Positions 27,992-34,604 of a stretch of 64,000 nt of DNA are shown here, piece after piece. The stretch spans positions 248,001 to 312,000 of the forward strand of contig NZ_BDIR01000001.1 of NCBI RefSeq assembly GCF_001895145.1, read 5' to 3'. Position numbers and translations under genes: made by a program. The notes under the pieces were generated by a model. That model made no database searches. It saw nothing but the letters and a program-made list of their open reading frames with translations, and was not told the origin of the DNA. Every line of letters starts with the position of its first letter. The first letter of the stretch is position 1. This DNA is from Arcobacter sp. LA11 (lineage in GTDB: Bacteria; Campylobacterota; Campylobacteria; Campylobacterales; Arcobacteraceae).

Positions 27992-30900
27992 ATGATTAAC
28001 CAAATAAATAAATTAATTGAAAACCAAGTACTAATAATAGATGGTGCTATGGGAACACAATTGCAACTTGCTGATATAAAGCAAGAAGAGTGGCAATATG
28101 AAGAGCAAGACTTAGAAGGATGTAATGAACTTTTAAATGAAACTGCACAACATGTTTTAAGAAAAATTCATGATGATTATGCTTCTTCTGGAGCAAATTT
28201 GATTACTACAAATACCTTTGGAACTATGCCTTGGGTTTTAGATGAATATGGAATTCCTGAAAAAGCTTATGAACTTTCAAAACTTGGAGCTCAGCTTGTA
28301 AAAGAGTCTTGTGAAAAGTTCCAAGATGAAAACAATCCAAAATTTGTATTAGGCTCAATTGGTCCAGGTACAAAACTTCCATCTCTTGGGCATATAAAAT
28401 ATGATGAAATGTATGAAGGTTATAAAGTTGTTGCAAATGGACTTGCAGATGGTGGAACAGATGTTTTTTTACTTGAAACTTGTCAAGATCCTTTACAAAT
28501 AAAAGCAGCACTTCATGCTTTAAATGATACTCATCCTGAAATACCTGTTATGGTTTCTGTGACAATTGAGATGTCAGGAACTATGTTAATTGGAACAGAT
28601 GCTTTAACTATTGCAGCTATTATGGAACCTTTTAATATTTTATCACTTGGATTTAACTGTGGTACTGGACCAAAGCAAGTATTTAAACATGTAAAAACAT
28701 TAAGTGAAGTTTGTAAATTCCCAATTTCAGTCCATGCAAATGCAGGGCTCCCTCAAAATAGAGGTGGAGTAACTTATTATCCAATGGGACCTGAAGAGTT
28801 CACTTCTTTACAAGAGACTTTTTTAGATATTAATGGAGTTGCTTTTTTAGGTGGTTGTTGTGGTACAACACCAGAACATATTGTAGCTTTATCAAATAAA
28901 GTAAAAGGAAGAGTTCCTAAAAAGCCTTGTGGGTTTTTAAAAGCTTCTTTAGCCTCTTTATTTAATACAGTTCCTTTAAAGCAAGACCCAGCACCATTAC
29001 TTATTGGTGAGCGTTCAAATGCAACTGGTTCTAAAGCTTTTAGAGAGTTACTTAAAGCAAATGATTATGAGGGAACTTTATCTGTTGGTCAACAACAAGT
29101 ACGTGCTGGAGCACATATTATTGATGTATCTGTTGGTTTTGCTGGACGTGATGAAAGAGAAGATATGGATAAGGTTGTTGAACTTTACTCTCAAAAAGTT
29201 TCACTTCCTTTAATGCCAGATTCTACTCAAATTTTAGCACTTGAAGCTGCACTAAAACAAATAGGTGGAAGACCTATAATTAACTCTGTTAATCTTGAAG
29301 ATGGAGAAGAAAAATTTGATGCTGTTTGTAAATTGGCTAAAAAATTTGGAGCGGCATTAGTTTGTCTTGTAATTGATGAAGTTGGTATGGCTAAAACTAA
29401 AGATGACAAGCTAAGAATTGCTGAGAGAATTTATGATTTATGTGTAAATAGACATGGATTTAAACCTGATGATTTAGTATTTGATATGCTTACGTTTACT
29501 ATTGGTTCTGGTGATGATGAGTATAGAACTGCTGGTGTTGAAACAATGGAAGCAATTAGAGAATTCCAAATAAGACATCCAGAAGTTGGAACTACGCTTG
29601 GATTATCAAATATATCTTTTGGACTTGATATAAAAGCAAGAGCATACCTAAATTCTATCTATTTAGACTATTGTGTAAAAGCTGGACTAACATCTGCTAT
29701 TGTAAATGTTAAACATATTTTACCTCTAAATAAAATCTCTGAAGAAGATAAAAAAGCTTGTGATGATTTAATTTTTGATAATCAAGAAGATGGTGACCCT
29801 TTATTTAAATTTATTGAGCATTTTTCAAATGTTGGTGATATTGAAGAGCAAAGTGATGAAGAGTATCAAAGTTTACCTCCTATAGAAAAAGTAAAAAAAC
29901 TTCTTTTAGATGGGGATAAAGATAGAATGCTTCCTTTAGTTGAAGAATTAAGACTACAAGTAAAACCAGAAGTTATCGTAAATGAATGGCTAATTGATGG
30001 TATGAAAATCATAGGTGAGTTATTTGGCTCAGGTCAAATGCAGTTACCATTTGTACTTCAAAGTGCTGAAACTATGAAAGCTACAGTTGATGCTTTAAAT
30101 CCGTATTTACCAAAAGAAGAGAAAGCTTCTGAAACAGTTTTAGTTCTTGGAACTGTAAAAGGTGATGTACATGATGTTGGTAAGAACCTAGTTGATATTA
30201 TTCTTTCAAATAATGGATTTAAGGTAATTAATATTGGTATTAAAGCTGATTTAAATGATTTTATTATTGCTGTTAAAGAGCATAAGGCAGATGCAATTGG
30301 TATGAGTGGATTACTTGTAAAATCAACTGCTGTTATGAAAGAAAATCTTGAAGAACTTCAAGCTCAAGGTATAGATATTCCTGTACTTCTTGGTGGTGCT
30401 GCTTTAACTAAATCGTTTATAAATGATTATTGTAGACCTTTATATGATGGACCAATATTTTATTGTAGAGATGCTTTTGATGGTGTTGTCTCTATGCAAA
30501 GAGTTGAATCAGGAGATAGTAATACTGCACTTGCAGCAGATTTAATAAATGATGAAGATAATCTTCCTAAAAAAGAAGTTGAAGAAGTTATTGTGAATGA
30601 AGAAGATGTAGAGCTTCCTGAAAATGGAAGTTTTACTTTTCCCCCATTATGGGGTAGGGTAGCACAAAATGGTAATGCTATAAATAAAGACTTAGTATTT
30701 AAATGGATTAACCATAGAGTATTATTTAGACAAAGATGGGGATACAAAAGAGGTAAACAAAAAAGTGAAGATTTTATCAAACATGAAGAAGAAGTTGTAA
30801 AACCTCTTTATGAAAAATTAAAAGAAGAGTTTATTGACAAAGAATTATTTGATCCTATTTCAATTTTAGCTTATTATCCTTGTATTTCAAAAGAGAATAA

Positions 30901-31462
30901 ACTTTATATTTTTAGTGAAGATTATGCTTTCCATAGTGAAGAGGAAGCAAAAAATGTTCCGTCTTTAGATAAAGCTATAAAAGTATTTGAATTTCCAAGA
31001 CAAAAGAAAAAGCCACATAGATGTATTGCTGATTTCTTTGCAAATGATAGATTAGATGTAGTTGCTTTTACTTTTGCAAGTGCGGGACATAAACTTAGTC
31101 CTTATGAAGCTGATTTATATAAAGAAAGTAAATTTACTGAGTATTATCAAGTTCATGGTCTTGGAGTTGAATTAGCAGAAGCACTAGCTGAGGTACTACA
31201 TAAACAAGTTAGACTTGATTTAGATATTGTTCCAAAAGAGGGACATACTTTAAATGATGTTCAGATGAAACAGTATGTTGGATGTAGATATTCACCTGGA
31301 TATGCAGCTTGTCCTGATTTAGAGATGAGTCGTGATATTTTTGATTTATTAAATCCAGAAGAGTTTGGAATAGAGCTTTCTGAAACTTTTCAAATTCATC
31401 CTGAGCAATCTACTTGTGCGATTGTAGTTCCTCATCATAAAGCGAACTATTACAATATTTAA
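27992..31462 (+). CDS. metH: Cobalamin-dependent methionine synthase
   Basis: A 1156-residue modular enzyme moving methyl from methyl-THF to homocysteine through cobalamin. Order: homocysteine domain (about 1-310; DGAMGTQLQ near 20, FNCGTG near 225 and GGCCGTTPEHI near 290 carrying the zinc cysteines), pterin-binding domain (about 325-600; GERSNATGSKAF), cobalamin domain (about 640-870; the base-off motif DVHDVGKNLV near 729), and reactivation domain (to the end; SPGYAACPD near 1105). All modules look intact. The gap before it (91 bases) is too small for a cobalamin riboswitch. A reverse-strand small-RNA candidate lies just downstream. Confidence 0.97.
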   Translation: MINQINKLIENQVLIIDGAMGTQLQLADIKQEEWQYEEQDLEGCNELLNETAQHVLRKIHDDYASSGANLITTNTFGTMPWVLDEYGIPEKAYELSKLGAQLVKESCEKFQDENNPKFVLGSIGPGTKLPSLGHIKYDEMYEGYKVVANGLADGGTDVFLLETCQDPLQIKAALHALNDTHPEIPVMVSVTIEMSGTMLIGTDALTIAAIMEPFNILSLGFNCGTGPKQVFKHVKTLSEVCKFPISVHANAGLPQNRGGVTYYPMGPEEFTSLQETFLDINGVAFLGGCCGTTPEHIVALSNKVKGRVPKKPCGFLKASLASLFNTVPLKQDPAPLLIGERSNATGSKAFRELLKANDYEGTLSVGQQQVRAGAHIIDVSVGFAGRDEREDMDKVVELYSQKVSLPLMPDSTQILALEAALKQIGGRPIINSVNLEDGEEKFDAVCKLAKKFGAALVCLVIDEVGMAKTKDDKLRIAERIYDLCVNRHGFKPDDLVFDMLTFTIGSGDDEYRTAGVETMEAIREFQIRHPEVGTTLGLSNISFGLDIKARAYLNSIYLDYCVKAGLTSAIVNVKHILPLNKISEEDKKACDDLIFDNQEDGDPLFKFIEHFSNVGDIEEQSDEEYQSLPPIEKVKKLLLDGDKDRMLPLVEELRLQVKPEVIVNEWLIDGMKIIGELFGSGQMQLPFVLQSAETMKATVDALNPYLPKEEKASETVLVLGTVKGDVHDVGKNLVDIILSNNGFKVINIGIKADLNDFIIAVKEHKADAIGMSGLLVKSTAVMKENLEELQAQGIDIPVLLGGAALTKSFINDYCRPLYDGPIFYCRDAFDGVVSMQRVESGDSNTALAADLINDEDNLPKKEVEEVIVNEEDVELPENGSFTFPPLWGRVAQNGNAINKDLVFKWINHRVLFRQRWGYKRGKQKSEDFIKHEEEVVKPLYEKLKEEFIDKELFDPISILAYYPCISKENKLYIFSEDYAFHSEEEAKNVPSLDKAIKVFEFPRQKKKPHRCIADFFANDRLDVVAFTFASAGHKLSPYEADLYKESKFTEYYQVHGLGVELAEALAEVLHKQVRLDLDIVPKEGHTLNDVQMKQYVGCRYSPGYAACPDLEMSRDIFDLLNPEEFGIELSETFQIHPEQSTCAIVVPHHKANYYNI

Positions 31463-31466
31463 AATA

Positions 31467-31553
31467 AATAAAAGTCATCACTCTTTCTAGGAAAAAAGTG
31501 ATGACCTCTACATTAAAATCAATAAGTCTCAAATAGGTATTTTCCTAAATTGA
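31467..31553 (-). ncRNA. Candidate small RNA, copy 1 of a sibling pair
   Basis: On the reverse strand a -10 box TATAAT (31560-31565) is followed by about 87 bases ending in a strong intrinsic terminator: GTCATCACT / AGTGATGAC (stem 31474-31482 with 31497-31505) and then TTTTATTTATT. Between lie a small stem-loop (TAGG / CCTA, about 31534-31547) and an unpaired TTTGAGACTTATTGATTTTA stretch. The same order, spacing and sequence recur at 32115-32202. On the forward strand the hairpin has no T-run, which is why I read it in reverse. No open frame lies in it. Ends are estimates. Confidence 0.62.
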
Positions 31554-31559
31554 AATGTT

Positions 31560-31581
31560 ATTATAATATATTAAAATGTAA
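31560..31581 (-). promoter_or_regulatory. Promoter of small-RNA candidate 1: TTACATT-N9-TATAAT
   Basis: Reading the reverse strand, TTACATT (31575-31581) and TATAAT (31560-31565) are separated by exactly nine bases. The identical pattern and spacing precede copy 2 and the hairpin at 34345-34438. The spacing is too short for a classical -35/-10 pair, so TTACATT may be an activator site or an extended element. Confidence 0.6.
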
Positions 31582-31725
31582 GAAATTAGGAATATTAACT
31601 CTAAAATTAAGTTTTTAAACTTATTATTTTTATTTTCTTGATTTTTACATTTTTTTTCGATTTTTTTTAAGTATATTTTATGATGAATTATTCTCTTTTG
31701 TGAAAAGTGGATAAAAGGCTAAGTT

Positions 31726-32118
31726 ATGATTAAAAATATACTACTAATAGAATATGATAAATTGGATGAGGGTTTAAAGTCTAGACTTATAAGATTAAAA
31801 AAGTATGTTTTAACAGTTGTTAATGATTATGATTCTTTTTTGGATGAATTTAATAAAAAAAATTTTGATTTATGCCTAATTAATATAAAGAACAAAAAAG
31901 AGAGAGGTTTTGTAATTTATTATATTTGTCATCAAGTCTCAAATCAAAAAATTTTAGCATGTGCAAAAAGTCTGAAAAAGTGCTATTTTAAAAAAAATTG
32001 CGAGCTTTGCAAGAAATATAAAATTAAAACTTTTAAATCTTATTCAAATACCAAGTATATAGAGTTTTGTATCGATAATTTTAATAGATATAGACGTAAA
32101 CCATGCAATAGTTTATAA
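31726..32118 (+). CDS. Degenerate receiver-like protein, cysteine-rich
   Basis: A 130-residue cytoplasmic protein. The first 80 residues follow the receiver fold (ILLIEYDKLDEGLKSRL, then FDLCLINIKNKKERG), but the phospho-acceptor position is Asn instead of Asp, so normal phosphorylation is excluded. It has eight cysteines, four of them in a C-x5-C-x5-C-x2-C array near residues 85-100, which could bind a metal or form disulfides. A T-tract/CGA promoter-like sequence (31650-31668) resembles that upstream of the reductase gene at 36030. It sits exactly between the two small-RNA candidates, the second overlapping its stop codon. Confidence 0.65.
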   Translation: MIKNILLIEYDKLDEGLKSRLIRLKKYVLTVVNDYDSFLDEFNKKNFDLCLINIKNKKERGFVIYYICHQVSNQKILACAKSLKKCYFKKNCELCKKYKIKTFKSYSNTKYIEFCIDNFNRYRRKPCNSL

Positions 32119-32202
32119 AAGTCATCAATCTTATTAGGGTAAGATGATGGCTTTTATATTAAAATCTGTAAGCTCAAAAAAGGGAGACTACTCCTTACTT
32201 GA
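32115..32202 (-). ncRNA. Candidate small RNA, copy 2 of a sibling pair
   Basis: Reverse-strand unit matching copy 1: -10 box TATAAT at 32209-32214, then a small stem-loop (AAGGAG / CTCCCTT), an unpaired TTTGAGCTTACAGATTTTAA stretch, and a long terminator stem (AAAGCCATC with GATGACTTT plus TAAGAT/ATCTTA-type pairs, 32118-32154), then TTTTATAA. Distance from -10 to terminator is 55 bases, against 54 in copy 1. The stem sequences differ between copies but pairing is kept. Its terminator end overlaps the stop of the forward gene at 31726-32118. Ends are estimates. Confidence 0.62.
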
Positions 32203-32208
32203 AAATAT

Positions 32209-32230
32209 ATTATAGAATAAAATAATGTAA
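32209..32230 (-). promoter_or_regulatory. Promoter of small-RNA candidate 2: TTACATT-N9-TATAAT
   Basis: TTACATT (32224-32230) and TATAAT (32209-32214) on the reverse strand, nine bases apart, exactly as for copy 1. The spacer itself is not conserved, so the two boxes and their distance appear to be what is kept. Confidence 0.6.
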
Positions 32231-32266: not shown

Positions 32267-33121
32267 ATGATAAATACTTCAAAAGGTCTAATTATAACTT
32301 CTCTAGGTGTTTTAATTATGAGTTTAGAATCCTTATTTATAAAACTTAGTACAATATCTCCCATTACATTTTCTTTTTATCTTGGAATATTTATGTTTTT
32401 TTCTACATCTCTTACACTTTTTATAAAGGAAAGGGATAGTTTAAAAGATATTATAAAAGTTTCTTTTCCTATATTACTTTTATGTGGAACATTAGCAGGT
32501 ACTTCAAATATATTTTTTATTTCAGCAATTAAAACTACTACTGTTGCAAATGTTGTAATTATTTTTGGAACGGCTGCAATTTTTTCCACATTTTTTGCAT
32601 ATATTTTTTATAAAGAGAAGATTGGTAAGAATATTTTTTATGCGTCATTTTTTATGTTTATAGGACTTTTTATAATTTTTAATGATAAATTAGGTTTAGG
32701 AAATTTACAAGGAAATATATATGCTCTTTTTTGCACTATTTCGTTTTCTTTAGTTTTTGTTTTTTTAGCAAGATATAAAAAGATAAATCGTGTTGCAGTA
32801 ACTGCAGTAACAGGGTTAGTATTATCTCTAATCACTTTTATAATTGCAGATACAATAGAAATTGATTTATATAATCTAGCTGTTGTTGCAGGAATGGGTT
32901 TGCTAATAACTCCATTATCGAGAGTTTTATTAGGAGTAGGAACAAAGTATATAAGTGCTAGCGAAGTTAGTTTACTTATGATTATAGAAACTATAATGGC
33001 TCCAATCTGGGTATGGATGTTTTTAAAAGAAATACCAAGTTTAAACACTTTTATTGGAGGGACTATTATTCTTTTAACTTTGATAGTGAATTCAATTTAT
33101 ACTATGAAAAGAAATAGGTAG
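32267..33121 (+). CDS. EamA/DMT family transporter
   Basis: A 284-residue inner-membrane protein with about ten hydrophobic helices in two EamA repeats (roughly 5-135 and 145-280). Typical elements are the first-repeat end with ANVVIIFGTAAIFSTFFAYIFYKE and the second-repeat SEVSLLMIIETIMAPIWVWMFLKE. Drug/metabolite transporters of this type export or import small metabolites; the substrate is not visible. AAGG precedes the ATG. It is convergent with a HEPN-like gene, with only three bases between stops and a short AGGTA/TACCT hairpin there. Confidence 0.9.
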   Translation: MINTSKGLIITSLGVLIMSLESLFIKLSTISPITFSFYLGIFMFFSTSLTLFIKERDSLKDIIKVSFPILLLCGTLAGTSNIFFISAIKTTTVANVVIIFGTAAIFSTFFAYIFYKEKIGKNIFYASFFMFIGLFIIFNDKLGLGNLQGNIYALFCTISFSLVFVFLARYKKINRVAVTAVTGLVLSLITFIIADTIEIDLYNLAVVAGMGLLITPLSRVLLGVGTKYISASEVSLLMIIETIMAPIWVWMFLKEIPSLNTFIGGTIILLTLIVNSIYTMKRNR

Positions 33122-34344: not shown

Positions 34345-34438
34345 AGGTGACTTATAAGACTGTCTCAAGGAGAAGAAAGGATTAAAATTCGCAAAAATTT
34401 TCCTATAATTGATGTTGAGACAGTTTTATAAATCACCT
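34345..34438. repeat. Long-armed hairpin A (94 bp)
   Basis: Arms of 24 bases (34345-34368 and 34415-34438) pair with two departures, one of them a G-U. The inner end of the arms is CTGTCTCAA / TTGAGACAG. The 46-base middle holds AAGGATTAAAATTCGC, AAAAATTTTCC in the same orientation as the matching part of hairpin B. It could be an RNA structure in the leader of the DUF2238 operon, or a small non-autonomous mobile element. Confidence 0.7.
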
Positions 34439-34456
34439 ATATTTTTTTACTTTTAG

Positions 34457-34478
34457 ATTATAAAAAATAAAAATGTAA
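34457..34478 (-). promoter_or_regulatory. Reverse-strand promoter TTACATT-N9-TATAAT upstream of hairpin A
   Basis: TTACATT (34472-34478) and TATAAT (34457-34462) are nine bases apart, exactly as before the two small-RNA candidates. Transcription would start near 34450 and run through hairpin A toward the DUF2238 gene. Confidence 0.55.
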
Positions 34479-34511: not shown

Positions 34512-34604
34512 TATACAAACCTGTCTCTAGATTCAAGGAGTGAAATTCGCAAAAATTCCTTAAAGTTGGCACTTTACATTATTTTCTAGAGACAGGTTTA
34601 TATA
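34512..34604. repeat. Long-armed hairpin B (93 bp)
   Basis: Arms of 20 bases (34512-34531 and 34585-34604) pair with one mismatch; the conserved inner part is CTGTCTCTAGA / TCTAGAGACAG. The middle includes AAGGAGTGAAATTCGC and AAAAATTCC, matching hairpin A in sequence and direction. Total length is one base shorter than A. Confidence 0.7.

Follow-up and report, generated by a model that had tools for sequence, protein, structure and literature searches.

Sibling small RNAs (sRNAs) have been described in the Rhizobiales, where AbcR1 and AbcR2 are encoded by neighboring genes; in Sinorhizobium the members of such pairs are more than 80% identical and are arranged in tandem (PMC4211561). In Campylobacter, the CJnc sRNAs are intergenic and start from housekeeping promoters that carry a periodic A/T signal; some of these RNAs are found in a single strain, and Hfq is absent from the studied members of the phylum to which this genus belongs (PMC3656092).

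The window analyzed here comprises 64,000 nucleotides of Arcobacter sp. LA11 (contig NZ_BDIR01000001.1, positions 248,001 to 312,000) and contains two related units, A and B, on the reverse strand. Like AbcR1/AbcR2 they are two related neighboring candidate sRNA genes that do not share a promoter or a terminator; unlike these, they are separated by a gene, are only 73% identical, belong to a genome in which Hfq was undetected and are predicted from DNA sequence, and no sequence relationship with the AbcR RNAs is claimed. With the CJnc series they share the intergenic position, the housekeeping-type promoter, the undetected Hfq and the narrow distribution; the CJnc RNAs were detected experimentally, whereas the units are predicted. 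Bidirectional intrinsic terminators offer a third comparison: unit B likewise has a gene-end hairpin with T-rich sequence on both sides, whereas in unit A such sequence is on one side only, and the units further include a conserved promoter, a 5' hairpin and a linker. On balance, units A and B are probably diverged copies of one small-RNA gene.

Architecture of the two units

The features of the locus are as follows (positions are those of the window).

27992-31462, + strand: metH, the upstream gene of the locus
31464-31511, - strand: unit A terminator hairpin (31468-31511), with the first bases of the T-rich tail (terminator scan, 20 pairs)
31512-31527, - strand: unit A open A/U-rich linker (predicted unpaired)
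31528-31554, - strand: unit A 5' hairpin, with TTTGA as its 3' arm (predicted fold)
31560-31581, - strand: unit A promoter, TTACATT at 31575-31581, nine bases, TATAAT at 31560-31565 (sequence and pattern search)
31726-32118, + strand: ORF130, a small orphan gene of 130 codons between units A and B, weakly response-regulator receiver-like
32112-32158, - strand: unit B terminator hairpin (32114-32158), overlapping the ORF130 stop codon (predicted fold, both-strand energies)
32159-32172, - strand: unit B open A/U-rich linker (predicted unpaired)
32173-32203, - strand: unit B 5' hairpin (predicted fold)
32209-32230, - strand: unit B promoter, TTACATT at 32224-32230, nine bases, TATAAT at 32209-32214 (sequence and pattern search)
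32267-33121, + strand: EamA transporter gene, the downstream gene of the locus

Each copy is a cassette of about 135 bases (promoter, RNA, terminator), and the two diverged copies flank ORF130, antisense between the co-oriented genes of the metH-ORF130-EamA stretch. The order is the same in both, namely TTACATT, nine bases, TATAAT, the 5' hairpin, the A/U-rich linker and a strong hairpin followed by a T-rich tail, so that, as sequence features, a promoter and a terminator of its own are present in each copy. Units A and B align at 73% identity over 133 bases (local search, E 3e-13), fold on the minus strand more stably than shuffled sequences (z -5.8 for A and -4.0 for B; -5.7 for the counterpart in the sister species, G007), and are the only sites in the window with CTTACATT-N(6-10)-TATAAT, a pattern expected 0.05 times. 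Together, these results argue that the units are real and related rather than chance look-alikes. A simple scan for promoter-plus-terminator units in the non-coding DNA of 464 kb of the same genome (G000), the sample also used for the promoter register, returned about five, the longest stem being that of unit A.

A preliminary description of this DNA had placed two reverse-strand units here, with nine bases between TTACATT and TATAAT and with no coding frame to explain them; the position and strand of both units and the promoter pairs were confirmed, and a frame common to both copies was absent on either strand. Several of its structural arguments fared less well. TTTGAG, described as unpaired, is predicted in all three folds to lie at the base of the 5' hairpin, where UUUGA of the 3' arm pairs with UUCAA. 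The compensatory change proposed for the stems is not borne out: the terminator core CATCA/TGATG is invariant, and on the proposed strand the adjacent T-A is replaced by a mismatched C.A; among three sequences, changes on both sides affect one of 28 pairs, and 166 of 500 shuffles do as well. The distances of 54 and 55 bases from the -10 box to the terminator stem rest on stem positions that do not correspond between the copies; counted to the homologous G they become 54 and 57, owing to a net difference of 3 bases in the 5' hairpin region. The greater conservation attributed to the unpaired part holds marginally between A and B, where 14 of 17 bases of the aligned linker block are identical, but not between unit B and G007, where the terminator is identical at 43 of 43 positions and the linker at 14 of 17. 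Thus the arguments from covariation and from a conserved unpaired seed fail, while the idea of sibling reverse-strand sRNA genes stands as the best single reading, since the locus presents a duplicated, constrained block from promoter to terminator and a promoter in the register of the genome, without a conserved peptide.

Putative promoters, hairpins and strand preference

In 464 kb of the genome, intergenic TTAA occurs 25 times at 12 bases before TA[CGT]AAT, against a mean of 8.8 at other spacings, and nine of the 15 TTACATT-TATAAT pairs in the whole genome have a spacing of nine. Both units carry TTAC in the TTA(A/C)-N12-TANAAT register. This register appears to be that of the housekeeping promoter in G000 and may be used for the annotation of start sites. 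In Campylobacter promoters a periodic A/T signal replaces the -35 box (PMC3656092, PMC3847290), and this precedent, together with the register of the genome, places the promoter claim on firmer ground than was available to the preliminary description. Judged by sequence, the promoters of the units look like the ordinary housekeeping type; unit B and the G007 unit keep the promoter of unit A apart from one base.

The two hairpins differ in their preferred strand. Hairpin A is much more stable on the minus strand (-29.2 vs -17.8 kcal/mol) and has no T-run on the plus strand, while hairpin B is better on the plus strand (-28.4 vs -22.7 kcal/mol), because the C.A mismatch of the minus strand becomes U.G there. 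T-rich sequence flanks hairpin B on both sides, and hairpin B and its G007 counterpart sit at the stop codons of plus-strand genes; a plus-strand stop codon directly precedes every unit, that of G007 included. Hairpin B therefore probably serves as the ORF130 terminator as well, and its perfect conservation in G007 is best explained by function in both directions.

These observations bear on the main rival explanation, in which the hairpins would be mainly bidirectional terminators of metH and ORF130 and the reverse promoter would yield at most a by-product or a short insulating countertranscript. The position of the units after stop codons, the better plus-strand fold of hairpin B with its T-rich flanks and the fact that the hairpin is the best-kept part between species speak for such terminators. 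Yet hairpin A points to the minus strand, and a terminator alone explains neither the conserved promoter, 5' hairpin and linker nor the drop in conservation past the promoter described below; as a full account of the locus we regard it as rather unlikely.

Distribution and comparison with the sister species

The covariance-model search proposed in the preliminary description was run in 104 genomes of the family and matched only G000, which carries exactly two copies, and G007, which carries one; no unit was found in the others. Likewise, blastn across 16 members of the genus found the unit only in these two. The sole outside match of a pattern search in 41 relatives (L002) had no unit around it, and among the matches listed in a pattern search of GTDB contigs nearly all were in unrelated phyla, the only recognized one being L115, a contig of G007. 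No relevant match was obtained in viral contigs and plasmids. In other members of the genus the unit is missing after metH, where the EamA gene or some other gene comes next. This distribution indicates that, in one branch, the unit either arose in this intergenic region or was brought into it.

In G007 the single unit lies directly after metH but has the EamA-side flank of unit B, and downstream of it a remnant of the EamA start is followed by an ORF130 relative. The one-copy state may reflect either a single-copy ancestor or a deletion. The ORF130 relative appears to span two contig ends, L005 1-50 and L041 1790-1815, where an adapter sequence was recognized that we take to be Nextera; such adapter sequence at these ends would represent assembly contamination that splits the gene.

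Unit B and the G007 unit are 89% identical over 126 columns, with metH DNA at about 86-87%; the spacer beyond the promoter falls to 53%, against 46 +/- 6% for shuffled sequence. The boundary of conservation lies just upstream of the reverse-strand promoter, as judged from one species pair and a short spacer, and this edge speaks for the transcription unit being kept as a whole. Within that same scope, the comparison suggests that the whole cassette is under constraint. The alignment of homologs, named in the preliminary description as a way to refute the reading, gave a divided answer, with a promoter kept but for the one base and stem covariation that is not significant.

That the copies flank an orphan gene, and that unit and gene are both patchy in distribution, would also fit a small mobile or repeated element, itself without function, whose copies are decaying. 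This is very improbable, as the genome holds two copies only, long terminal inverted repeats do not frame the unit, viral contigs and plasmids gave nothing relevant and conservation is higher in the unit than in its flank. The diverged pair looks young and lineage-restricted, its members being candidate sibling sRNAs of an already known kind.

Other structured elements were also observed. After metH in three other members of the genus (L025 at about 1868-2000, L028 and L036 at about 1860-2000) there are other large imperfect palindromes with, by eye, CGTT and CCTTGAA motifs, possibly one repeat or RNA family in the genus. In the window, two tandem, strongly structured elements (34345-34440 and 34515-34602, - strand; z -8.0 and -7.0) occupy the DNA that separates a porin gene from a 196-codon gene; they have long outer stems with a common CTGTCTC/GAGACAG and a common core AATTTTTGCGAATTT...TCCTT, and TTACATT-N9-TATAAT stands ahead of the second, at 34457-34478. 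The region shows 88% conservation in G007 and has no Rfam match, and the two elements are folded more strongly than units A and B.

Candidate function of the units

No Rfam family was found in the window at the gathering score, and at permissive E-values the locus gave a sub-threshold chance match alone. Hfq was not detected in the genome (no match to PF17209, which matched five control genomes), and an Hfq-dependent trans-acting sRNA was rejected for this reason; a CsrA-titrating sRNA was likewise discarded since CsrA was not detected either (no match to PF02599, which matched three control genomes). A type I toxin-antitoxin antisense RNA of the AapA/IsoA kind was also rejected, given that the plus-strand mini-frames, 12-23 codons long, are interrupted by stops or out of register when the copies and G007 are compared.

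The gene enclosed by the units resembles a degenerate response-regulator receiver with Asn at the would-be phospho-Asp position, although its match to the receiver family PF00072 (E 0.03) is below the cut-off, and it has a C-x6-C-x2-C motif in common with distant relatives in G007 and G008. Relatives of ORF130 were found in four of 100 other genomes of the family, and none by a protein scan of GTDB contigs.

Target prediction against the 5' ends of mRNAs, as the preliminary description had advised, singled out no candidate among 435 gene starts (464 kb): no target was common to the three copies, and the starts of metH, ORF130 and the EamA gene were unremarkable. Inside ORF130, ATTTGAGACTTATTGA of unit A matches the complement of positions 31929-31944 at 14 of 16 bases, with a duplex of -17.2 kcal/mol that 11 of 810 genomic pieces reach. 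The RNAs might thus act as cis antisense, pairing with metH-ORF130 or ORF130-EamA read-through messages, between whose co-oriented genes the units lie antisense, or, in the case of A, inside the ORF130 message. We consider this unlikely: for unit B, 295 of 810 genomic pieces pair as well as ORF130, the site of unit A is by inspection not kept in the G007 relative, and a 1.4% event is weak given several comparisons. The pairing of unit A inside ORF130 is a weak, unconserved lead.

Returning to the two putative diverged sRNA genes, each copy would have a housekeeping promoter of its own and be transcribed on the reverse strand into a predicted RNA of about 90 nt, which would begin with a 5' hairpin, continue through a short open A/U-rich stretch as linker and end in an intrinsic terminator. 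We infer that this RNA is produced and that its open stretch may pair with mRNAs encoded elsewhere, without Hfq. Action in trans of this sort is the likeliest mechanism, although overall we propose it tentatively, at perhaps less than an even chance. Hairpin B would most likely also end transcription of ORF130 on the other strand, and the gene would be of recent origin within a single branch of the genus and would have been duplicated around ORF130. The parts that the sequence itself supports are the homology of the copies, the putative promoter, the predicted hairpins, the lack of a common frame and the apparent constraint that the sister species shows over the full cassette. A bolder version, in which a newborn, self-contained sRNA pair bounds and regulates the receiver-like orphan, A as an RNA and B also as the ORF130 terminator, is distinctly improbable; if true, it would provide a datable example of the birth and duplication of an sRNA in bacteria without Hfq.

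As a sequence feature the pair of units is otherwise ordinary, and its interest is modest unless transcription and a target are shown. If transcribed, it would add a duplicated sRNA family in the Arcobacter group, which is sparsely covered for sRNAs in the literature searched and in which Hfq-free sRNA action is poorly understood, and the sister species with one copy would serve as a comparison for the duplication and divergence of sRNA genes.
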